Source of the DNA: Halopiger xanaduensis SH-6
GTDB lineage: Archaea; Halobacteriota; Halobacteria; Halobacteriales; Natrialbaceae
Length of the DNA: 64,000 nt
Direction: 5' to 3'
Assembly (NCBI RefSeq): GCF_000217715.1
Contig: NC_015666.1
Location: 632,270-696,269 of the forward strand
The notes beneath the pieces are model-generated. The model was not told where the DNA came from. It searched no databases and was given only the letters and a program-made list of their open reading frames with translations. The position numbers were made by a program, and so were the translations under genes. Of this stretch, positions 4,608-15,459 are shown piece after piece (within the stretch, counting starts at the first letter, position 1; every line of letters begins with the position of its first letter).

Positions 4608-6448
4608 TGTCGGCCGCTGACTCGCCGGACGACGCCGGCCCACAGCCCACGCTCGAGGGGGGTAACGGCGACGGAATCTCGAGACGTGAGGCGATGCGGC
4701 GGGTAATGACCGCGGCGACGGCGACCGCGGCGATCGGGGCGGCGGGCTCGCAGGCTGTCCCGCAGTTCTCTCCGGCAGGACGTGCTCGAGCGATTCCGCC
4801 CGCGGCGATCGTGCTCGCACCGACCGCTGGCGCAGCGGTCGGCTGGGCGCTTCGCGAACACGAGGTTATCGGAGCCGATGACCCACCGGAGGGCATGACC
4901 CCCGACGCGCTGCACGAAAGCGTCTATAACTCCGCTAAAAAGCGCGAATCGAATAATGCGAGCACTTTCGTTGACAATCGAAATATCATCAACACGGGCT
5001 TAGAACACTCCTTATATGCTGATGGCAAGGTGGCCGCGATTGAGGCGCTGAACGACGAGAAAACCGAGCAAGAGGTCGAAGACGCTGCTTTCAAAGCGGC
5101 GGAGGAAAGCGTCACCACTCCGATGAAGAACCTCCTGCGGTCGTGGAATGAGTCCGTCAACGAGCTTCAAAACCTCATCACGAAAGTTCAGGATCACTCT
5201 GATCTTGGTCTGGACGGCCTGATTGAGTCGCGACACTCGGATACTGATACTGTTCGGCAGGCTCGGACGGAGAAAAACAAGCAGACCGCCGAGTTCCCCA
5301 ACGGCGACACAATGGATGTGCACGTTGTGGAATTCAATACTCAAAGCGGCAACGAGTGGTCCCCGTACCGAAACGATTCTATTGACTCCGATACCGGCGA
5401 CAGCACGTTACCTGTTGTCGATGTCTATCCGCCGTCTGACTCTAACTCGGACAAAGTGGTCTACCTCAAGGAGCAGGAATGGACTGATCTTTACGACGAA
5501 TTTGAGACGGTCCTAAGCGATGTCAAAAGCGGCCTGCAAACGTGGGTGTCGAACGTGTACGGTGAGGTTCAGTCCGGTGAAATCGACACGTCTGACCTGC
5601 TAACGCCGCGGGAGATGGCGGAAATCTCGTCTGATCAGGGCGTGAACCAAGGGATTGCCGACCTGATCGCTCTTAACATCCCGGTCGACCTCGAGCGCGA
5701 GGCGACTATCGAGATCGAGCAGGATAACGGCACGGTGACGATCTCCGGTAATGTTGCACTCACCGATGACTCAGATGGCCCGATCGAGGCCGGAGAAACC
5801 TACAACCCGGCAGACCTGAGCGGCGATGTGTATTTCACCTACGACGTTGCTGCAGGTAACGGGGAGTGGGGACAGTACGAGACCGGTGTTGATGGCGGGG
5901 TTGTCACGTTCACCGCTGAACCCTTCTCTGATACGGAATACGCCATCAAAACTATCGCTGGAGAGACGGCGACCGTCACGGCCGACGACTTCAGCGAGAA
6001 AACGAACGATTCGGACGAGACGGTCTGGACAGTCGATATATCGGACCAAGTAGAAACGTCCATAACTGAAGTCGATACCGTCGAAATGTCGGCTACGACC
6101 GACGATACCAACTGGGAAACCATTCAACTTGATCAGTCGTTTACGGTCGTGGAGATTACGGATTCCGACGGCCAGCAAGTGAAATCCCTCGATTTCGAGC
6201 AGTCCGAGCCCCAAAACGACGAGAATTACATCACTCAAGAGGAATGGGAGAAGATGAGAAAGCGCAATGAAGAACTGATTCAAAAGTACGAAGAATCGCA
6301 GAACGACGGCGGATGGGGGTTCCCGTCGGTTGGCGGCTTCAGCGACTTCAGCGGCGACCAGATCGCGGGACTGGCGATTATCGGCGTTATCGTCATGTCG
6401 GTGGTAGGAATCGCAACCAACTTCATTCCGTTCGTTGGTGGAAAGTAG
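4607..6448 (+). CDS. Tat-exported spike-like protein (VP4 type)
   Basis: The 613-residue protein starts at the ATG overlapping the previous stop codon. A twin-arginine signal is present (SRREAMRRVMTAATATAAIG, about residues 24-43). Residues about 100-230 are helical and partly coiled-coil. The middle is rich in beta strands and Asp/Thr. A single membrane anchor (AGLAIIGVIVMSVVGIATNF) lies about 15 residues before the C-terminus. Pleolipovirus spike proteins are exported and C-terminally anchored in the envelope, where they bind and fuse with the host. Length and gene position match. The start of the coding region is GC-rich, while 4900-6300 is less so, suggesting a diversified ectodomain. Confidence 0.75.
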   Translation: MSAADSPDDAGPQPTLEGGNGDGISRREAMRRVMTAATATAAIGAAGSQAVPQFSPAGRARAIPPAAIVLAPTAGAAVGWALREHEVIGADDPPEGMTPDALHESVYNSAKKRESNNASTFVDNRNIINTGLEHSLYADGKVAAIEALNDEKTEQEVEDAAFKAAEESVTTPMKNLLRSWNESVNELQNLITKVQDHSDLGLDGLIESRHSDTDTVRQARTEKNKQTAEFPNGDTMDVHVVEFNTQSGNEWSPYRNDSIDSDTGDSTLPVVDVYPPSDSNSDKVVYLKEQEWTDLYDEFETVLSDVKSGLQTWVSNVYGEVQSGEIDTSDLLTPREMAEISSDQGVNQGIADLIALNIPVDLEREATIEIEQDNGTVTISGNVALTDDSDGPIEAGETYNPADLSGDVYFTYDVAAGNGEWGQYETGVDGGVVTFTAEPFSDTEYAIKTIAGETATVTADDFSEKTNDSDETVWTVDISDQVETSITEVDTVEMSATTDDTNWETIQLDQSFTVVEITDSDGQQVKSLDFEQSEPQNDENYITQEEWEKMRKRNEELIQKYEESQNDGGWGFPSVGGFSDFSGDQIAGLAIIGVIVMSVVGIATNFIPFVGGK

Positions 6449-6450
6449 CC

Positions 6451-6984
6451 ATGTCCCGATTTTTCGTTTTTGCAGCGGTAGTAGTGCTCTCTCTGGCGGT
6501 GGGCATGGGCGCAGTCGCCGCGCAGGAGAACGCCACGAACGGGACGGCCGTCGAGACTGAGAGCGAGGACGTCCAGGCGATCGACAGCGACACCCGGATC
6601 ACTGACTGGGAGTACCGGCCGGGCATGTTCACGATCACGGTCGAGGCGGACACCGAAACCGAGGTATCGATGACCGAAGCCGGCGGCTTCGAGGAAGGGA
6701 CGGGTTCGTTCAACTACGATGAAGTGGAACTCGAGGAGGGATCGAACACGATCACCTTCGCCGTCACCGACCGCGAGGGCGCGGGCGTCGCGGTCGCGAC
6801 GCGGCGGTCGCTTCAGCAGGGGACCGGCGCGTTCGTCTCGGTCGGGACGGTCGAACGGAATCCGCTGAAACACTTCGGCGGTGAGTCGGGGCTGTTCTCC
6901 GGCGTTGCCATGACCGTCTCGTTCGCTGGTCTCGGCGCGTGGTACGTCGTTCGCAGCGAGGAGACCGGGGTGATCGAGGCATGA
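6451..6984 (+). CDS. Secreted single-pass membrane protein of the virion operon
   Basis: The 177-residue protein has an N-terminal signal peptide (FFVFAAVVVLSLAVGMGAVAA), a beta-rich ectodomain of about 110 residues with an N-x-T sequon near its start, and a C-terminal anchor (LFSGVAMTVSFAGLGAWYVV) followed by a short cytoplasmic end. It starts two bases after the spike-like gene and overlaps the next gene by four bases (ATGA), so the genes are cotranscribed. Pleolipoviruses encode conserved small membrane proteins between the spike and ATPase genes. Its role is unknown. Confidence 0.7.
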   Translation: MSRFFVFAAVVVLSLAVGMGAVAAQENATNGTAVETESEDVQAIDSDTRITDWEYRPGMFTITVEADTETEVSMTEAGGFEEGTGSFNYDEVELEEGSNTITFAVTDREGAGVAVATRRSLQQGTGAFVSVGTVERNPLKHFGGESGLFSGVAMTVSFAGLGAWYVVRSEETGVIEA

Positions 6985-7787
6985 GCGACACCAGCGGCAC
7001 CTTCGGCTCTTGGTCGGACCGAGTGACCTACGTCGTCGCCGAGGCGCAGCTGCTCGTCGGCGGCGCGATGGTATCGATCGCCATCCTGTTAGTCTGGTTC
7101 CGACCAGAACTGCCGGGTATCCCGCCCATTGTGCACGGCTGGATCGCTGCGACGTTCCTGCTCGGGCCACCGCTGCTGGGGCTGTTCATCACGGGCTCGC
7201 GCAAGCTCCGGCAGCGGAATATGGTGACGATACACCACATCAACGGCGTCACCGACGAACGAGAGAAATACTACGTCGAGCCCGGCGTTTGGGAAAACAA
7301 GACCGTCGAAGGACCGTCGCCGTACCCGGTCAACGACGGCTCTGCGTTCGAGGTTCGCGAGTTCGACTGGCACGCGGACACCGAGACGCTGATCGTTCGT
7401 GGCTGCTACTTCAGCCAACTCAGCGACTCGAAACTTGTCACGGTGAAGGCCATGCTCGAGGACATCCATGGCGATCTCGTTGAAGAATATCTCGCAGCGA
7501 ATCGGCTCCGCGGTCGGATCTCGAAGATGGGGCTGCAAATCCAGAAGGACGTGATCAACGAAGAAGCGGAGGCCGACGAGCGCGGGCTGATGAACCCGAA
7601 GACGGCCGTCAAATCACGGTTCGAAGACGCTCGCGACGACGCCGAGAAGAACGCGACCGAGGGCATCAAGGACATCAACGGCTTCGTCGAGGACTACGCC
7701 GACGAACACGGCATCGAGACGACGAGCGGCCCGCCAGCGACCGCAGAACAGGCCCAGCAAGCCGCAACCGACGGGGGTGAACGATGA
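6981..7787 (+). CDS. Membrane protein with long cytoplasmic helical tail
   Basis: The 268-residue protein starts MSDTSGTFGSWSDRVTYVV at an ATGA overlap. Two membrane helices (about residues 21-40 and 50-72) are followed by a basic turn. A mixed soluble domain of about 90 residues then leads to a charged helical tail (about 160-268) ending in an Ala/Gln/Thr-rich segment. The large cytoplasmic part and the four-base overlap with the ATPase gene suggest the two products work together, for example in assembly at the membrane. Position matches a conserved pleolipovirus gene of unknown function. Confidence 0.7.
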   Translation: MSDTSGTFGSWSDRVTYVVAEAQLLVGGAMVSIAILLVWFRPELPGIPPIVHGWIAATFLLGPPLLGLFITGSRKLRQRNMVTIHHINGVTDEREKYYVEPGVWENKTVEGPSPYPVNDGSAFEVREFDWHADTETLIVRGCYFSQLSDSKLVTVKAMLEDIHGDLVEEYLAANRLRGRISKMGLQIQKDVINEEAEADERGLMNPKTAVKSRFEDARDDAEKNATEGIKDINGFVEDYADEHGIETTSGPPATAEQAQQAATDGGER

Positions 7788-8953
7788 GCGACGAACAGGA
7801 CAACTACACGGTCGGCGGCTTTCGCGAGTACCAGGCCAACAACCTCGAGCGCGATCCCGACGAAGTGCTCCCGCACTCGGGATTCGTTCGCGACGAGCAT
7901 GTCGATCGCCAGCTGGCCATGCGGGCGATCCATCACGATGTGGACCGCTGGGACGGAAAGGCTGCGAAAGACTACATGGCCGTCGGCAAGAACCGCGACA
8001 TCCTGCGGGCAGAGGGCAGCGAGACGGCTCGCGACGCCCTCGAGAACGGCGACACGCTGACGCTGAAACACTACATCGGCGATCCCTCGCAGCAGGCCGA
8101 CCTCGCGGGGATCAAAGCGGTCACGCGGTTGCAAGAGATCGTCGCCGGCCCCGCGCCGGTGATCGTCGTGCTTGGGGAGATGGGCGCGGGGAAGACCGAC
8201 TTCGCTGGGCTGTTGGGCCAGTTGCGCGAGCGGTGGGTCGACGGCGACCTCCTGGTCGGCTCGAACATCCGGACGCTCGATCGACTCGACGACTGGGTAC
8301 GCGACGACGGCACCGTCGAGGACGGCTGGATTCCACACTACCCCCTACTCGAGGAGTGGGCAACGCAGGACGGCGATCCTGTCGAGAACCCCCAGCAGCC
8401 GAAACTATTCATCGGCGACGAGTTCTCGACCAATGCTAGCGGGACCGGCGCGGACGGCCACAAGGTTCGCCAGAAGATGGGGCCGTTGGTGTTCAAGATC
8501 CGCAAATACGGCGGCGCACTCATCTATATCGGTCACGACGAATCGTCGATTCACCCGCTCCTCTGGCGCGTTGGGACGATTATCAAGAAGAAATCGAAGA
8601 AGCAAGCCGTCGTCGCCGACCGCGTTTCCGGCGGCAAGCTCGTCGACGTCGATCCCCGTCCCCTCGAGGGGATTCCGCCGACGGACTGGAACTTCCACAC
8701 ACAGGACGAAGCCGATTGGTCGTGGGAAGCCCCCGAAGGCGACGACAAGGAAGGCGAGGCGATTGCCGAGGAAGACGTGAAGCGGGTCGCCGCCTGGACG
8801 ATGGAAAAGTGCCGCCGGCAGGGAATGTCCGCACGCGAAACCGCCGAGTTCGTCCCCTACAGCCACGCTACCGTCTCGAACTGGTGGAAAGAGATCGACG
8901 ACGGCGGCGAAAAGGCCGACTGGGTTAACACCGTCGAGCAGGTGATTGCATGA
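7784..8953 (+). CDS. VP8-like P-loop ATPase with C-terminal HTH
   Basis: The 389-residue protein has Walker A GEMGAGKT at 131-138 and a Walker B-like FIGDE near 209-213 (KLFIGDEFS). The N-terminal 100 residues are acidic and helical. The C-terminal 50 residues carry a helix-turn-helix (GMSARETAEFVPYSHATVSNWW). Pleolipoviruses encode a conserved putative ATPase (VP8 in HRPV-1) at this position, assumed to help genome handling or assembly. The HTH suggests direct contact with DNA. It is the last gene of the operon, followed by an inverted-repeat structure. Confidence 0.8.
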   Translation: MSDEQDNYTVGGFREYQANNLERDPDEVLPHSGFVRDEHVDRQLAMRAIHHDVDRWDGKAAKDYMAVGKNRDILRAEGSETARDALENGDTLTLKHYIGDPSQQADLAGIKAVTRLQEIVAGPAPVIVVLGEMGAGKTDFAGLLGQLRERWVDGDLLVGSNIRTLDRLDDWVRDDGTVEDGWIPHYPLLEEWATQDGDPVENPQQPKLFIGDEFSTNASGTGADGHKVRQKMGPLVFKIRKYGGALIYIGHDESSIHPLLWRVGTIIKKKSKKQAVVADRVSGGKLVDVDPRPLEGIPPTDWNFHTQDEADWSWEAPEGDDKEGEAIAEEDVKRVAAWTMEKCRRQGMSARETAEFVPYSHATVSNWWKEIDDGGEKADWVNTVEQVIA

Positions 8954-9003
8954 GGGCGTCGGGGTGTCAACCCGTAAAGCGAAACTCCCCCGGGTTTACT
9001 GTA

Positions 9004-9055
9004 GCCCATCGCCGGCCCCGGTCGCTCCCGAGCGGGAGCGATACGACCGATGGGC
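9004..9055. repeat. Nested inverted repeats after the ATPase gene
   Basis: An outer 8-base pair of arms (GCCCATCG at 9004-9011, CGATGGGC at 9048-9055) encloses a 9-base hairpin (TCGCTCCCG at 9022-9030, CGGGAGCGA at 9033-9041, loop AG). The structure lies between the ATPase stop and the promoter of the next gene. It could end the structural transcript, form a cruciform, or be a protein-binding site. No T-run follows it. Confidence 0.6.
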
Positions 9056-9080
9056 GGGCGGGTCGCAGGCGGCGGAGGTG

Positions 9081-9089
9081 TATATATAG
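9081..9089 (+). promoter_or_regulatory. TATA box of the small nuclease gene
   Basis: TATATATAG is a strong archaeal TATA element. With the usual spacing of about 26 bases, transcription would begin near 9108-9112, close to the two possible GTG starts (9105 and 9114). That predicts a leaderless mRNA independent of the virion operon. Confidence 0.6.
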
Positions 9090-9104
9090 CGGCGCGCGAC
9101 GCGC

Positions 9105-9497
9105 GTGGTCCGCGTGAACCGCTCGAAGCGCGCCAATCACTTCGGCACGATCTGCGAAAAGCGGATGGCCCGGAAGCGTCGGTTCGATCTCGAGCGGGCC
9201 AGCTGGCACGACGCCAGATTCGGGAACGGAACACCCGTCGAAATCAAGAGTACCATGCTCGAGCATTCGAACGGCCAACCGGGGAACTTCAAGATCTATC
9301 GGGAGTATCACGACAAGCTACAGCGCCACAACGGCTGGTACTGTTTCGTCGTTTACCGACCGCACGGCCGTTCGGGACTGACTATCGTGAAGGATAAGAT
9401 GGTTCGAGCGTGTGATCTCCCGCTACTCCGATGGCACGGTGGTGGCGATCATCGTGGAACCGAGCAAGCGAAGATCGCGATCGGCGATATCTTCTAA
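9105..9497 (+). CDS. Small PD-(D/E)XK-like nuclease
   Basis: The 130-residue protein (GTG start at 9105; GTG at 9114 is also possible) reads NRSKRANHFGTICEKRMA early on, then a conserved Asp in SWHDARF, then GTPVEIKST. The order of N-terminal Glu, Asp and E-x-K resembles the PD-(D/E)XK restriction/resolvase fold. The C-terminus has RWHGGGDHRG and an acidic end. Similar small proteins recur in haloarchaeal proviruses. It may resolve or cut DNA during replication. The fold assignment comes from motif order only. Confidence 0.55.
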   Translation: MVRVNRSKRANHFGTICEKRMARKRRFDLERASWHDARFGNGTPVEIKSTMLEHSNGQPGNFKIYREYHDKLQRHNGWYCFVVYRPHGRSGLTIVKDKMVRACDLPLLRWHGGGDHRGTEQAKIAIGDIF

Positions 9498-10126: not shown

Positions 10127-10381
10127 CTAATCTTGAACAATGGTAACGGTCTTCTCTACCTCGAAGTTCGTCACTCGAGTCGATAACGTTTCAGCGATCT
10201 CCCGGCGCTGCTCGTGAGTGAGATCGTCGCGCTCGAGGACCTGGCGTGCAGCTGCGACGAGACGGGGCACGTCTTCGCAGGCAGAGACCACGGCTTTCGT
10301 CTTGTTACAGTCGTAGAAATCTGCTGCTCGTTCGATTGCATCCTCGCGATAGGCGTAGTCGCCGTCAGTTCGAATTCGCAT
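10127..10381 (-). CDS. Small conserved haloarchaeal provirus protein
   Basis: This is an 84-residue protein starting MRIRTDGDYAYREDAIERA. An upstream GTG at 10393 is less likely because related small proteins start at this Met. It is mostly helical and charged, with KTKAVVSACEDVPRLVAAARQVL in the middle resembling a ribbon-helix-helix or DNA-binding accessory protein. I know of similar uncharacterised proteins near haloarchaeal proviruses. No function can be stated. Confidence 0.6.
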   Translation of the reverse strand: MRIRTDGDYAYREDAIERAADFYDCNKTKAVVSACEDVPRLVAAARQVLERDDLTHEQRREIAETLSTRVTNFEVEKTVTIVQD

Positions 10382-10511
10382 GCTCGTACACACGACCCCG
10401 GAAATCCTAGTTTTTTCGACTCACTGGACCGGTCTATACAGCCCAAATCCGGGGTGTTTCTATCACTCTACCAGAGCGGTCGACGGGATCATCATGGTGA
10501 TCGCCGACCAA

Positions 10512-10544
10512 TATGCACACGGCACTGCTCGATTCGTGTGCATA
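10512..10544. repeat. Perfect 10-base inverted repeat
   Basis: TATGCACACG at 10512-10521 and CGTGTGCATA at 10535-10544 form perfect arms around a 13-base loop. The site lies in the 243-base gap (10382-10624) upstream of the small provirus gene and downstream of the A+T-rich island, where I see no gene. It could be an operator or the stem of a small RNA or terminator. Confidence 0.5.
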
Positions 10545-10624
10545 CTCGGGAAACGGATTCTGTCAACGTGCAACCCCAGGGGGAGAAGAAAGATCCATAG
10601 AGCGATTTTCAATAAGATTTATTG

Positions 10625-10891
10625 CTATTTCGCCTGTTCTGATAACCTCTTTAGTTTCAAATATTTCAAGTACAGTATACTTGACGTTAGGAAAACACCG
10701 AATATGAATATCAGTGATACAAAGACCAATAATAGATACTCAGTAGAAGATATCTCTGAGTTTAGACTTTCAGCAAGGAGATTATATCTAGAAGCCCCTA
10801 TTTGGATTGTTCCAGCAATATTAGCTAGTAAAATTGCTGTAATGCAGAAGTCAGTACCAATCTCAGCAAGACCGACTTGTTTAAAGCTCAT
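10625..10891 (-). CDS. Two-helix membrane protein of the A+T-rich island
   Basis: The 88-residue protein has two hydrophobic segments (about residues 14-32, ITAILLANIAGTIQIG, and 50-75, EYLLLVFVSLIFIFGVFL) and a basic end (KYLKLKRLSEQAK). Its start overlaps the stop of the upstream gene by four bases, so the two are translationally coupled. I recognise no family. The pair may form one membrane complex. Confidence 0.6.
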   Translation of the reverse strand: MSFKQVGLAEIGTDFCITAILLANIAGTIQIGASRYNLLAESLNSEISSTEYLLLVFVSLIFIFGVFLTSSILYLKYLKLKRLSEQAK

Positions 10892-11289
10892 AACTCGTCA
10901 GGGATTCCCATTTTATAAGCGAATATCAAAAAGGCAATCCCAATTCCAAATAGAGGTATGAATCCATATCCAGAGACTATTATACTTATTAACATTCCTA
11001 CAACTCCCACAAAAATTGTTGCAAGAACAACCGATCGATAGAGGTCTTCAGCAGTGAATTCAGTAGGATCATTCTCTTTTTTCACATGACGTTCCAACCC
11101 ATCCATCTTGCGGTTAATCTTCCCCCGCAAGTGCTTTCTTTCTTGTTGTGCTAATTCCTGATTTTCCTGTATATTTTGTAAGTTCTGTATGATTCTTTCA
11201 TCGATTTCATCTTCAGAGTTATCTACTAGATCCCGTGGATTTGGGGAGGGGTTCTCACCGTCACTCTGATCAGTTCCAGGTTCAGACAT
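10888..11289 (-). CDS. Coiled-coil protein with two C-terminal membrane helices
   Basis: This 133-residue protein opens with an acidic disordered stretch, followed by a helical region rich in Gln, Glu and Lys (about residues 28-75) with coiled-coil character. Two membrane helices follow near 84-106 and 108-126. The arrangement, a cytoplasmic sensor-like coil plus a membrane hairpin, recalls small membrane effectors of defence or exclusion systems, but I recognise no motif. It is coupled to the downstream gene by an ATGA overlap. Confidence 0.6.
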   Translation of the reverse strand: MSEPGTDQSDGENPSPNPRDLVDNSEDEIDERIIQNLQNIQENQELAQQERKHLRGKINRKMDGLERHVKKENDPTEFTAEDLYRSVVLATIFVGVVGMLISIIVSGYGFIPLFGIGIAFLIFAYKMGIPDEL

Positions 11290-11337: not shown

Positions 11338-11691
11338 CTATCCTTCAATATTATCATCAGCACTATCATCGCTATAACCTAGTTCCTTCGTATAAATATC
11401 AACTATAATAGATGGTGAATTTTCAATCTCTAACTCACCGTCTGGATTTTCCACACTGACCTTAGAGTATTGCTTTGAGATTTCCGTAATTTCATAACTC
11501 CCAAATGAATTCATCTCTATATCATCATCCATTTCCTCTCCTTCAAATTCTTTGAATGTTATATTCGTTAACAGAATTTCTTCCCCCTCATTTGGTATTG
11601 GTAAATTATCAGATGTAAACTCTTCTATCAATTCGCCATCTTCATCGTAAAACCTGAGGAATATCCCTGCGGAAGTACTTCTATTGTCCAT
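11338..11691 (-). CDS. Acidic soluble protein of the A+T-rich island
   Basis: The 117-residue protein is very acidic and rich in beta-type segments (GIFLRFYDEDGELIEEF, ILLTNITFKEF, SIIVDIYT), with no signal peptide or membrane segment. It ends in an Asp-rich tail. It starts about 120 bases after the four-helix gene at 11809-12366 and precedes the coiled-coil gene by 48 bases. No family was recognised. Confidence 0.55.
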   Translation of the reverse strand: MDNRSTSAGIFLRFYDEDGELIEEFTSDNLPIPNEGEEILLTNITFKEFEGEEMDDDIEMNSFGSYEITEISKQYSKVSVENPDGELEIENSPSIIVDIYTKELGYSDDSADDNIEG

Positions 11692-11808: not shown

Positions 11809-12366
11809 TTATTCTACGTCGTCTAGTGACCTATACAGATCCTCTATTGGCTTTCGCAAGTTCTCCGGAACTTCCTCAAGATCACTCAGCTGAATATCTT
11901 TCATCCCTTCACGCAACTCTAACAATGGCTCCTGTAGGTCGCTTGGGACTGCATGCAAGTCTTTAGGCGGTTTTATTGTCCATTTGAACAAGAGCCAGGA
12001 AAAAGTAGCCAATATTGTAAGAAAAGAGCCAACGAAAAACAGTACAGTACTTATTAGGTTATTATGGTTTAAAACACTAAATAATTCGGACATACCATAA
12101 ATATGCGAGGGAACATAAATCAAGAGAGAAATCATATATAAAGCCGCAAGTTTGGTTGGGTCCATGCTATTTCCCAAAAACATTCTACCATTCAGATAAT
12201 ATGAGTGAGCTATATCCATTGCCGGAAAAATCATTGAGAGGATCCCTACAATCAAATATTGTAATTCGCCTTCAAGATGATATAGATAACCAAACACGAC
12301 TGGAACATATAAATAGAGGATCTCAACTTCTTCTTTTAGCAGACTTGGCAAGTCAGTCGATTGCAT
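11809..12366 (-). CDS. Multi-pass membrane protein with acidic C-terminal tail
   Basis: This is a 185-residue protein with about four hydrophobic segments between residues 14 and 130 (for example LYLYVPVVFGYLYHL, YLIVGILSMIFPAM, LAALYMISLLIYVP, TVLFFVGSFLTILATFSWLLF). A soluble tail of about 55 residues rich in Leu, Pro and Glu follows. It is the first gene of the A+T-rich group in reading direction. No family was recognised. A role in membrane-based superinfection exclusion or defence is possible but unproven. Confidence 0.6.
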   Translation of the reverse strand: MQSTDLPSLLKEEVEILYLYVPVVFGYLYHLEGELQYLIVGILSMIFPAMDIAHSYYLNGRMFLGNSMDPTKLAALYMISLLIYVPSHIYGMSELFSVLNHNNLISTVLFFVGSFLTILATFSWLLFKWTIKPPKDLHAVPSDLQEPLLELREGMKDIQLSDLEEVPENLRKPIEDLYRSLDDVE

Positions 12367-12424: not shown

Positions 12425-12625
12425 GCTCCTAAGGAGCAGAATAAGCGCTTAGACTGCCTCGTTTCGTGAGTTTCAACTGGAGATTTTTCACGGGGACGAG
12501 GCAGGGGCGCTGTAATTTTTGGCGCTGTCGCCTTGGCGACACCCGCCAAGGGGCGTTTCGCGCGCAGCGCGAAACCGACCCGCAGGCGACCCGTCGCGAT
12601 CGCGACGGCGGCACCTCCTCGAGGA
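12425..12625. repeat. Dense palindrome block, candidate replication origin
   Basis: Eight inverted repeats occur in 201 bases: 12425-12437 (6-base arms), 12442-12451 (10-base palindrome), 12454-12462 with 12496-12504 (9-base arms), 12526-12541 (7-base arms), 12531-12551 (8-base arms, overlapping the previous one), 12555-12575 (9-base arms, 3-base loop), 12591-12608 (18-base perfect palindrome) and 12616-12625 (10-base palindrome). The block sits in the gene-free gap 12367-12721 between the A+T-rich island and the large replication-type gene. A replication origin, a partition site or stacked terminators are all possible. Confidence 0.7.
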
Positions 12626-12721: not shown

Positions 12722-14341
12722 CTACCAGTCGGCGATCGCACCCACGCGGTGGCTGTCGCGGCCGCCTCCAGGTGTCCGCCAGACCATCGACACCTTGCTG
12801 AACGGCACGACGTCGTTTCCGGAGTGACGCCACGCGTCGATCGCCTCCTGGGCGACGCGCCGAGCGTTCTCGAAGCTATCGGCCTTCTTCAGCGACAGAA
12901 TCGCGTCAATTCGGAGCTTCTTCGGATTGCCGCTTTCGTCGAATTCGATTTCAGCACCGTTCTCTGCGAGCCACTTCTGGAACGGCGACGACTCGGCGAT
13001 ATGGTCGGCCAGGCCCATCACATGCTGAATGCGATCAGCGAAACTCTCGATTGCGTACTCGGCTGACTCGACAAGTGCACGCAACTCCTCCTGATACTTC
13101 CGCGCTCGGAACGAGATTTCGCCTTGATCCAACTCGAGGATGTCGCCGAGGTCTTCGATCGCGCGGTAGATCGTTGCCGGGTGCTTGCCCAACTCGTCGG
13201 CGAGACCGTCGACGGTCCCACTGCCGTCGGTGGCAACTGTCTCGGTCACCTCGCGGGCAGTCTCGCCCATGTCCCGCAGCGTCGTCATCAACAGGTGGTC
13301 CGTCTTCGCCTCGAGGCGCGGCGTCGGATCTTCGTAGAGTTCGACCTGGTCGTCTCGAGCGACGGCATCGAAGTGATCGTCGGGCACGTACACGTCGTTC
13401 CCGTCAGGACCGAACGGGATATCTTCCCAGTGCAGCGCGTTCAGTAGCGTCTCGTCTATCTGTTCGGTTACCTCGTGACGGTCGGCCCATGCCCATGCCT
13501 CACCGTCGTTCATTGACTTGTTCACCAGGACTTCCACCTTCGGATGGTACGACGGGTGATCTTTCGAGACTGCGTCCGGATCAGCCAGCTGGTAGATCTC
13601 GAACTTCCGCCCATAGGTGTGACCGGGCAGTAACTTTGCAGCTGACGTAGGATCGAGGATCAGCCGGTTCTGGTGATTGATCACTTCCTTGTTGTTGAGT
13701 TGCAACTCCGCGACGATCCCCTCGAGGTCGGAGAGATAGTGAACTACCTTCTGCAGCACACCGGCCGATGCGAGCTTTTCGGCCCACTGCCGACGGATTC
13801 GGACGTACCGCTCGTACGCCCACATCCGACTCGCCGGGTGCGGGTCCGTCCGGAAGTACTCGGGATGGACTCGCTCTTCGGCGTGCTCGAAGATCGCCGT
13901 GAAGAACTCCGGCAGCAACTCGAGACCACGGTCGGGCTCGATGTTACTGACGTGGAACTCGACGTCGACGCCGCCGACCTCGCCGATCTGATTCTCCCAG
14001 GGGAGATTCACCGGCTCGCCGGTCTCCCAGTGGCGCATGTTCGGGAACCGCGGCGAGATATTGTACGACGCCTTCCGCTCGCCGCGCCCGCGCCCGCGAA
14101 TATCCCACTCGTAGAGCCGCTCGGCGTTGATTCCGTCAGATAGTCGCGGCGCGAACCCCGACTTGCTGTAGCTCACCTCGAGGTGCCAGGGCTCGCCGTC
14201 GATCTCGATGTCCAGCTCCAGGTATCCCTCGAACGGTGGGCCGAGCATCACCGACGACAGTGCATCGTATGGACCGCGGCCCCAGTCGGGCCACTTCCAG
14301 CGGCCCTCGATCTCGTGCGGCGTCGTCTCGACCTGCGTCAT
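12722..14341 (-). CDS. Large conserved provirus protein, probable replication protein
   Basis: The 539-residue protein is soluble, without signal peptide or membrane segments. The N-terminal two thirds are a large mixed domain unfamiliar by motif (DUF7845-like, as I recall from haloarchaeal proviruses). Around residues 360-410 is a winged-helix/HTH segment (GTVDGLADELGKHPATIYRAIEDLG). The C-terminus is helical and ends in a basic segment. It is last in a tightly overlapping leftward operon with two zinc-ribbon proteins. Large wHTH proteins at this position are the suspected replication proteins of betapleolipoviruses. Function is inferred from context and the adjoining palindromes. Confidence 0.6.
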   Translation of the reverse strand: MTQVETTPHEIEGRWKWPDWGRGPYDALSSVMLGPPFEGYLELDIEIDGEPWHLEVSYSKSGFAPRLSDGINAERLYEWDIRGRGRGERKASYNISPRFPNMRHWETGEPVNLPWENQIGEVGGVDVEFHVSNIEPDRGLELLPEFFTAIFEHAEERVHPEYFRTDPHPASRMWAYERYVRIRRQWAEKLASAGVLQKVVHYLSDLEGIVAELQLNNKEVINHQNRLILDPTSAAKLLPGHTYGRKFEIYQLADPDAVSKDHPSYHPKVEVLVNKSMNDGEAWAWADRHEVTEQIDETLLNALHWEDIPFGPDGNDVYVPDDHFDAVARDDQVELYEDPTPRLEAKTDHLLMTTLRDMGETAREVTETVATDGSGTVDGLADELGKHPATIYRAIEDLGDILELDQGEISFRARKYQEELRALVESAEYAIESFADRIQHVMGLADHIAESSPFQKWLAENGAEIEFDESGNPKKLRIDAILSLKKADSFENARRVAQEAIDAWRHSGNDVVPFSKVSMVWRTPGGGRDSHRVGAIADW

Positions 14342-14448
14342 CGCCCCCGTTCCTCCTCGGGGTCAGTCCGACCGACGAGATCGGCACCGCACTCCGAACA
14401 GCGGTAGACCTTCGCGCTCTCGGCGTCGCAAACCGGACACTCCGTCAT
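14338..14448 (-). CDS. 36-residue zinc-ribbon microprotein
   Basis: The reading frame encodes MTECPVCDAESAKVYRCSEC followed by GADLVGRTDPEEERGR. Two CxxC pairs (Cys 4/7 and Cys 17/20) form a complete zinc-ribbon knuckle. It overlaps its upstream neighbour (14445-14951) and its downstream neighbour (ending at 14341) by four bases each (ATGA), so translation of all three is coupled. A role as accessory nucleic-acid-binding protein for replication or transcription is likely. Confidence 0.7.
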   Translation of the reverse strand: MTECPVCDAESAKVYRCSECGADLVGRTDPEEERGR

Positions 14449-14951
14449 CGGCCCGAGTCACCCCCTTGCCTTCGCGTGGAATTCTCAGAATGTGAAGGCG
14501 AGTGACCGATGTCCGTGCGGTTGTCGCTGCGAGCAGCGCCGGACTCGAACGACTCACACTCGGTTAGTTGAATTCCCGCAACGCCGTGCTCGATACTACA
14601 CGCAGCGATCGTCGCGGCGAACTCTCGCCCGAATATTTTCACCGTGACGCGCTTGCACCGCCAGATTCCCGAGAAGTCGAATCCTTCGCTGACAGCTGAT
14701 GCGACGGGAACGCTCACGATCACGTCGCCGTCGAACCGGTCGACCTGTTCGGCCGGTACCCGCTCGCCGTCGATGGTGACCGGGACGTATCGCTCGCTCG
14801 AGTCGGTTCCGCCGTCGGTCCGAATCTCGCGATCGTCTCGTTCCTCGAGCGCACGACGAACGTCGGCGTCGCTCGCTTGATGGGCCGGATGGGCTATGGG
14901 CGTCCGGTTCTCGACATCGTACAGTCGGTTCGCCCGGACGAACTCAGACAT
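14445..14951 (-). CDS. Provirus protein of unknown function in replication operon
   Basis: This is a 168-residue protein from the ATG at 14951; a GTG at 14960 is also possible. It starts MSEFVRANRLYDVENRTPIA, has a central beta-rich region (VPVTIDGERVPAEQVDRF, DVIVSVPVASAV, KRVTVKIFGREFAATIAAC) and a disordered Ser/Arg-rich tail. No family was recognised. It overlaps the upstream zinc-ribbon gene by eight bases and the downstream one by four. Confidence 0.6.
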   Translation of the reverse strand: MSEFVRANRLYDVENRTPIAHPAHQASDADVRRALEERDDREIRTDGGTDSSERYVPVTIDGERVPAEQVDRFDGDVIVSVPVASAVSEGFDFSGIWRCKRVTVKIFGREFAATIAACSIEHGVAGIQLTECESFESGAARSDNRTDIGHSPSHSENSTRRQGGDSGR

Positions 14952-15183
14952 CGGGCTCACCCCCGTGGCGGCCGGGCGACGTTTCTGGGTCTGGGACCTC
15001 GACGTCTTTTCCGGCGGCGGACCCGCGAGTTAGCCGCGCGTAGGTGTCGCACTCGGGACAGCGGTGGACGCGGTCGTTCTCGTCACCGAAGACGCGACCG
15101 AACCGATCGGTGATGAACGAGTCGCAGTGCAGGCACGTCGACCGGCCAGCTGACGGCCATGGTGCGACCGTCACGCCGACCAC
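14944..15183 (-). CDS. Zinc-ribbon protein, DUF7563-like
   Basis: The 79-residue protein (GTG start at 15183) contains CLHCDSF and CPECDTYARLTRG, two CxxC knuckles about 24 residues apart, with ITDRFGRVFGDENDRVHRC between them. It ends in a Pro/Asp-rich tail. Proteins with this pattern are widespread in haloarchaeal viruses and proviruses, from memory DUF7563. It is first in the leftward replication-type operon, closest to the tRNA. It likely binds nucleic acid or a polymerase partner. Confidence 0.65.
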   Translation of the reverse strand: MVGVTVAPWPSAGRSTCLHCDSFITDRFGRVFGDENDRVHRCPECDTYARLTRGSAAGKDVEVPDPETSPGRHGGEPDV

Positions 15184-15354: not shown

Positions 15355-15459
15355 CGGGCACGATGGGATTTGAACCCACGACCGTCGGATGTCTTCCCCC
15401 GCCGCAGACGCGACGAGGATAGAAGTCCGACGCTCTTATCCAGACTGAGCTACGTGCCC
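15355..15459 (-). tRNA. tRNA-Arg(UCU) with a 29-base intron
   Basis: The minus strand folds as a full cloverleaf. The acceptor arms GGGCACG/CGTGCCC enclose a D-arm GCTC/GAGC, an anticodon stem TCGGA/TCCGA with loop C-U-UCU-A-A, and a T-arm with loop TTCAAAT. CCA is not encoded. An intron at 15391-15419 interrupts after position 37. The pre-tRNA shows a canonical bulge-helix-bulge: CUUC (32-35) pairs with GAAG of the intron, with bulges UA^U and AC^A at the splice sites. The exons are 15420-15459 and 15355-15390, giving 76 bases when spliced. The 3' end borders the provirus, so it is the likely attachment gene. Confidence 0.95.

Follow-up and report, generated by a model that had tools for sequence, protein, structure and literature searches.

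Rolling-circle replication origins of the pT181 type, found on Rep_trans plasmids, contain a bind repeat and a nick hairpin. Initiation is expected to need both parts and termination the hairpin only. Recombination at rolling-circle origins is also known, for instance at the v-ori of geminiviruses and circoviruses and in the cassettes of staphylococcal plasmids.

In haloarchaeal viruses, the closest described system is that of SNJ2. Its initiator RepSNJ2 (ORF19) was described in 2026 as the founding member of a family of rolling-circle initiators, Rep-Arvir, which carries a MarR-like wHTH (PMC13107129). Autonomous replication with rep and single-stranded DNA intermediates have both been reported for SNJ2 (PMC13107129). 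The origin lies downstream of rep. Counted from the stop codon, its inverted repeat spans 156-166 nt and its conserved hairpin 176-197 nt, with the stem and loop TGGC-TAAG-GCCA at 186-197 nt (PMC13107129). Mutations that break the stem of this hairpin or alter its loop abolish replication, but a change that preserves the stem does not (PMC13107129).

The window analyzed here is a stretch of 64,000 nucleotides from the Natrialbaceae-type chromosome of Halopiger xanaduensis SH-6, at G000:C3:632270-696269. It contains a block of palindromes at 12425-12625, located 3' of a rep gene. The reading preferred here, with a probability of roughly 0.8, is that this block contains the rolling-circle origin of an SNJ2-like provirus, and that the origin hairpin is at the same time the border of cargo exchange, with rep and the binding repeat staying on the right.

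By its gene content, the host element is a betapleolipovirus provirus. A structural gene block, a Rep, an SNJ2-type integrase and a tRNA attachment site were all found:

1-570, - strand: C-terminal part of an SNJ2-type integrase (62% identity over the whole length, locus L124), whose full 350 aa span the window start
7784-8953, + strand: homologue of SNJ2 gp17 (NTPase), 76% identity
9105-9494, + strand: homologue of SNJ2 gp18, 88% identity, the conserved gene left of the variable region
12722-14341, - strand: rep gene, 539 aa, DUF7845/Rep-Arvir, phrog_3288 (PF25227, E 1.2e-103, residues 3-326)
14944-15183, - strand: homologue of SNJ2 gp25 (DUF7563)
15355-15459, - strand: tRNA-Glu(CTC) with an intron, the right end of the provirus; its 3' end is repeated (16 bp) beside int, giving the attachment site

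The genes at 6313-9494 are homologous to the SNJ2 structural block (gp14, gp15, gp17 and gp18), and those at 12722-15183 (- strand) form the replication side. The DNA upstream of the window contains an SNJ2-type integrase of full length (62% identity, 350 residues aligned of 349) together with the 16-base repeat of the tRNA 3' end. The provirus therefore spans about 15.9 kb and encodes an untruncated integrase.

The palindrome block contains four main features:

12526-12541, - strand: origin hairpin TGTCGCC/GGCGACA with a CAAG loop on the rep strand, 181-196 nt from the rep stop; palindrome TGTCGCCTTGGCGACA (arms of at least 7), proposed nick site and right end of the exchanged cargo
12531-12551: alternative hairpin CCTTGGCG/CGCCAAGG
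12555-12575, - strand: inverted repeat GTTTCGCGC-GCA-GCGCGAAAC, 147-167 nt from the rep stop, proposed Rep-binding site
12591-12608, unstranded: 18-base palindrome CCGTCGCGATCGCGACGG

The initial annotation counted eight inverted repeats in these 201 bases, a density far above background. With arms of at least 7 and a loop of at most 12, there are four perfect inverted repeats, whereas shuffled sequences average 0.26 and not one of 300 dinucleotide shuffles contains as many as four. A sliding-window scan of the 64 kb finds four strong palindromes in just one of 638 windows, which is the block itself. A count of eight needs arms of 5 bases and is then ordinary, being reached in 25 of 319 windows. 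The 18-base palindrome is present as described, and the pair of hairpins called mutually exclusive is real, because 12531-12551 overlaps 12526-12541. The palindromes are real and lie where they had been placed, though they are uneven in strength, and the conserved stretch is shorter than the block: in an alignment of relatives the conserved element is 12457-12625, and 12425-12456 is not conserved. The element is in fact flanked by the Rep gene on its right side and by variable cargo on its left. A pattern scan of viral contigs gave no match. An Rfam search of the window matched only tRNA, and a known RNA family was rejected as an explanation for the block.

The adjacent gene, noted earlier as a probable replication protein, encodes a member of DUF7845/Rep-Arvir. 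When eight Reps are aligned, the catalytic tyrosine (Y283 in SNJ2, Y250 in the window) and the essential Glu25 of SNJ2 (E10 in the window) are conserved in all eight. Glu303 of SNJ2 corresponds to E270 in the window Rep and is replaced by Gly in three of the eight. At the position of SNJ2 Gly410, the window Rep has Ser374 where the other relatives compared have Gly. The G410A change abolishes replication of SNJ2 (PMC13107129), and the window copy of Rep might be impaired.

The locus resembles SNJ2 in several ways. A DUF7845 rep is followed downstream by an inverted repeat and then a hairpin, at a similar distance from the stop; GGGTGT precedes the hairpin in both; and the provirus has an SNJ2-type integrase at a tRNA. 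The differences are a Rep identity of only about 25%, a hairpin of the form GTCGC-CAAG-GCGAC instead of TGGC-TAAG-GCCA, and a 65-base module and cargo region after the window hairpin, both absent from SNJ2. A comparison with relatives had been suggested as a check on the palindromes, and in cultured relatives they are not absent: SNJ2, HHPV3, HHPV4, HRPV-3 and HGPV-1 all have a hairpin with a CTTA loop at 173-197 nt from rep. Origins of the pT181 type share the combination of bind repeat and nick hairpin, but they have no sequence relation to this one, and the Rep here is archaeal and carries a MarR-like wHTH.

Evidence for the folded structure is provided by covariation among 24 relatives. 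Three helices have standard pairs in 92.7% of cells, and 23 cells are changed on both sides, compared with 9.3 in shuffles. The inverted repeat at 12555-12575 is paired in 93.5% of cells, and the 18-base palindrome has both-side changes in three pairs. Single-stranded folding of the block is more stable than in 200 of 200 shuffles (z -3.3 and -3.6). The origin hairpin occurs in two complementary types, G-C (40 copies) and C-G (34 copies), and none of the 74 copies matching the search pattern has a mismatch. The alternative hairpin at 12531-12551 shows no compensatory changes, and one of its pairs is broken in 11 of the 24 relatives. Without covariation it was set aside as a functional fold, and it probably is not one.

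Together, the adjacent Rep-Arvir gene with its catalytic residues, the SNJ2-like order and spacing of hairpin and inverted repeat, and the covariation bear out the earlier suggestion of a double-stranded origin. The origin reading is well supported because homology and geometry agree, with folding as a further point, and the block is very probably the rolling-circle origin of an SNJ2-like betapleolipovirus provirus. The origin is a new member of the Rep-Arvir family. After excision, the Rep-Arvir encoded at 12722-14341 would bind the inverted repeat at 12555-12575 and nick the hairpin at 12526-12541, and the new strand would be primed from the nick, as in SNJ2. Family searches of the adjoining genes recognised no paired recombinase and no ParAB family. 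A resolution site in the strict sense, which the initial annotation had also proposed, is unsupported; the hairpin appears instead as a recombination border, which had not been foreseen.

Comparison of related loci divides the conserved element into two modules:

12457-12542, + strand: module A, TTTCGTGAGTTTCAACTGGAG ... TAATTTTTGGCGC plus the origin hairpin; right border of the cargo, also found alone on plasmids
12454-12504, + strand: outer stem of module A (CTGCCTCGT/ACGAGGCAG), with 74% of cells paired and both-side changes in five pairs, a weaker signal
12543-12625, + strand: module B, the Rep-proximal half of the origin with the binding repeat, found only beside rep

The element is present, whole or in part, in 87 of 125 Natrialbaceae genomes. 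An order-level search outside Natrialbaceae gave short, weak matches only and no full element. Full copies (A plus B) adjoin the 3' end of rep wherever enough DNA was read, the few exceptions lying at the ends of contigs or within decayed loci. A MITE or scattered repeat was rejected for the full element, since its copies adjoin rep. Module A without B is found mostly on small replicons and named plasmids, and in the 20-kb stretches read around such plasmid copies no rep was found beside them. In L066, L068 and L075, module A adjoins other types of Rep. It can also occur as 2-3 direct-repeat copies 1.05-1.34 kb apart (L009/L071, L052, L057 and L068). The genome of the window itself has a second full provirus with A, B and rep (G000:C3:3628150, L041) and two stand-alone copies of module A on smaller replicons (G000:C4:35959 and G000:C1:325464).

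Module A might be mainly a transcription terminator or insulator between the cargo and the rep operon, its spread reflecting that use. A T-run (TAATTTTTTGG) on the + strand followed by a hairpin would suit such a function, as would the convergent genes of many loci. However, the equivalent SNJ2 hairpin is needed for replication even when rep has its own promoter, its loop cannot be changed without loss of replication, and the SNJ2 transcript ends near a different motif, at 1-36 nt (PMC13107129). A terminator also gives no reason to expect the step in relatedness at the hairpin that is described below, and this explanation is very improbable.

The opposite end of the cargo has a conserved border as well:

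10127-10393, - strand: DUF7692 gene (PF24743, E 4.6e-34) beside LE
10497-10586, + strand: LE, left cargo border (inverted repeat TATGCACACG..CGTGTGCATA, then CGGGAAACGG...GTGCAACCCCAGGGG), conserved at the opposite cargo end in proviruses and on plasmids
10888-11289, 11338-11691 and 11809-12366, - strand: three AT-rich ORFs, the cargo of the window

In proviruses, about 0.6-8 kb of variable DNA lie between the gp18 homologue and module A, and in most Natrialbaceae loci LE is the far border of the cargo. LE was rejected as a coding sequence; one frame looks open in several loci, but not consistently. The DUF7692 gene lies left of LE in most proviruses and not on plasmids, where LE is in several cases preceded by a PhiH1-repressor-like gene. 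In L008, L122 and L123, a recurring cluster left of the plasmid LE units encodes a coiled-coil protein, a zinc-ribbon protein and a PhiH1-repressor-like wHTH protein, and in L008 and L122 the zinc-ribbon protein carries a Cas12f1-like TNB domain. In L063 a hairpin module of the SNJ2 type (TTGGGCTTAGCCACA) is found left of LE; hairpin modules of different types can therefore surround one cargo unit. In L072, direct repeats at both flanks of an LE-A unit contain a third similar-looking hairpin with a CTTA loop (TGCCYCCTTAGGGGCA), which may be the origin hairpin of a different type of Rep.

Each locus carries 1-4 cargo genes, in either orientation. Those identified include two type IIG restriction-modification enzymes, an AriA/AbiL-like ATPase, a Lamassu LmuB-like protein, an AbiJ-NTD5/DUF4145 protein, a DprA-like protein, a trypsin-like protease and a pentapeptide/ion-channel protein. 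On one plasmid, an Mrr-type restriction enzyme lies left of a diverged module A. One cargo protein (L044:4925-5830) consists of four homing-endonuclease-associated HNH repeats (PF18780). Many cargo genes belong to no known family; the three in the window are among them and match no Pfam family above the cut-off. Relatives of the window gene at 11809-12366 are found in 2 other genomes, and both adjoin LE. The type IIG enzymes of L042 and L046 are 81% identical and are cargo in proviruses of two genera. Sharing of cargo at the DNA level beside module A is rare and mainly concerns this one pair; co-travel of the left part of module A (A-left) with a given cargo gene is therefore shown only indirectly.

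Relatedness differs between the two sides of the hairpin. Among relatives, the Rep side to the right can be 92-100% identical while the cargo and about 65 adjoining bases are unrelated or diverged. Over 80 copies of module A, the identity of these roughly 65 bases is 0.78 where the right flanks are unrelated and 0.84 where they are at least 97% identical, so that it hardly varies with the right flank (r 0.15). A block scan of 28 close against 886 distant pairs of module copies locates the change. Right of the hairpin, close pairs lose 0.86-1.00 of the divergence in each block. The share lost is 0.39-0.54 within the hairpin, 0.27-0.67 over the first 20 bases to its left and about 0.3 further left, with none at -60 to -70. 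Whether a hairpin is G-C or C-G is linked to a base shortly to its left (47 copies, Fisher p 1.5e-4) but to neither of two markers on its right (p 1.0 and 0.38), and the usual joint is thereby placed close to the hairpin's right foot. Close pairs are a little more alike in A-left, so some of this segment may be kept or may be exchanged in a different way.

Individual loci show the same pattern. On the right of the hairpin, the plasmid loci L069 and L076 share 99.6% identity across 10 kb, but their cargo is unrelated and A-left is diverged. The same step is found in the Haloarcula group, which belongs to another family: in its closest pairs of loci the Rep side is 0.9-1.0 identical and the cargo side 0.1-0.4. 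The viruses HHPV3 and HHPV4 are 98.5% identical in the left arm and 99.9% in the right, with different genes between, and the right-hand identity ends at the origin hairpin, save for a short conserved motif just beyond. According to the 2018 description of HHPV4, the identical stretch starts at nt 12,259 (PMC5867852). The HHPV4 rep stop is at 12,446 and the hairpin lies 174-187 nt from it; because 12,259 is 187 nt from the stop, the identity starts at the outer base of the hairpin. Passages located in papers on these viruses (PMC5867852 among them) do not connect this joint with the origin. HHPV3 and Harhisp1 provide the reverse swap, in which the cargo-side DNA by the hairpin and the hairpin itself are identical, the binding repeat differs and the Reps have 29% identity.

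Sequence comparison places the joint at the origin hairpin, in both directions and in two haloarchaeal groups, and the hairpin is the border where accessory genes are swapped between viruses. In Natrialbaceae, it apparently also serves as such a border in exchanges with plasmids. The main text of PMC13107129 does not report this role.

Ordinary homologous recombination between short conserved sequences could produce a border effect without any involvement of Rep, leaving the block an origin only. Conserved stretches are present on both sides of the cargo (the origin on the right; gp18, DUF7692 and LE on the left) and could supply the homology, and in HHPV3/HHPV4 the left joint falls within a conserved gene, a result to be expected of such recombination. 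The right-hand joints fit less well. They fall at the hairpin, although about 110 conserved bases to its right offer equal or better homology, and close pairs are alike all the way to its right foot. Nor does homologous recombination account for the tandem module copies or for the rep-less copies on plasmids. This explanation is a plausible one, judged somewhat short of an even chance.

According to the preferred reading, with the hairpin as both origin part and exchange border, the joints would be made by Rep cutting and joining and not by ordinary homologous recombination. Rep would cut at the hairpin during rolling-circle replication, and the cut end would be joined to the hairpin of another molecule, so that everything on the cargo side is replaced. 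The DNA left of the hairpin (the cargo and the adjoining 65 or so bases of module A) would thus be exchanged, and rep and the binding repeat would stay on the right. By analogy with pT181 origins, replication could end but not start at a hairpin that lacks its binding repeat, which would fit the rep-less copies of module A and the tandem arrays.

Alternatively, LE, cargo and module A may form a discrete mobile unit with two ends of its own, either a rep-less rolling-circle element or an integron-like cassette, for which proviruses are one kind of host. LE and module A do bracket cargo of either orientation, both in proviruses and on plasmids, at loci whose outer flanks are unrelated, and the direct-repeat copies of module A could be expected of such a unit. 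However, neither an empty site nor a target duplication was found. The joined flanks of the plasmid units L065, L070 and L078 gave no contiguous match among plasmids. Three records share the right flank only, two of them without module A and one with a diverged copy, and none has a clean junction. The plasmids L069, L071 and L076 have both outer flanks in common but not the cargo, which looks like exchange between fixed borders, and in HHPV3/HHPV4 the cargo was exchanged with a left joint inside a gene. A discrete mobile unit is rather unlikely.

Integron attI/attC arrays are similar in having variable genes between repeated hairpin sites, a single boundary opposite and tandem copies. They differ in that the hairpin here is part of a replication origin and cargo is found in both orientations. 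No integron integrase was seen: the one integrase encountered is of the SNJ2 type and lies at the provirus's far end. The check for RYYYAAC/GTTRRRY ends was by visual inspection.

The exchange between replicating molecules favoured here could also be taken further. Rep-Arvir origins might act as the strand-transfer sites of a cassette system, in which rep-less half-origins, consisting of module A with its hairpin but no binding repeat, would bound defence cassettes in proviruses and on plasmids, and any resident pleolipovirus Rep could cut and join them, moving cargo between virus and plasmid and building tandem arrays. This extension is speculative and seems doubtful as a whole.

The border is a variant of something known, because recombination at rolling-circle origins has been described in other groups of viruses and plasmids. 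As in geminiviruses, circoviruses and staphylococcal plasmid cassettes, module joints lie at the Rep nick hairpin, here a proposed one. Here, by contrast, the viruses are archaeal with dsDNA, the initiator is Rep-Arvir, the cargo is defence-like and rep-less copies of the site occur on plasmids. What is new is that the hairpin of a Rep-Arvir origin is a swap point for accessory genes, in two haloarchaeal groups and in both directions, and that half-origins stand at cargo ends on plasmids. The position of the joints predicts that Rep-Arvir would cut at the hairpin, most likely at its Rep-side foot, which goes beyond what was described for SNJ2 (PMC13107129). Exchange at such a site would offer defence-like genes a concrete path between viruses and plasmids.
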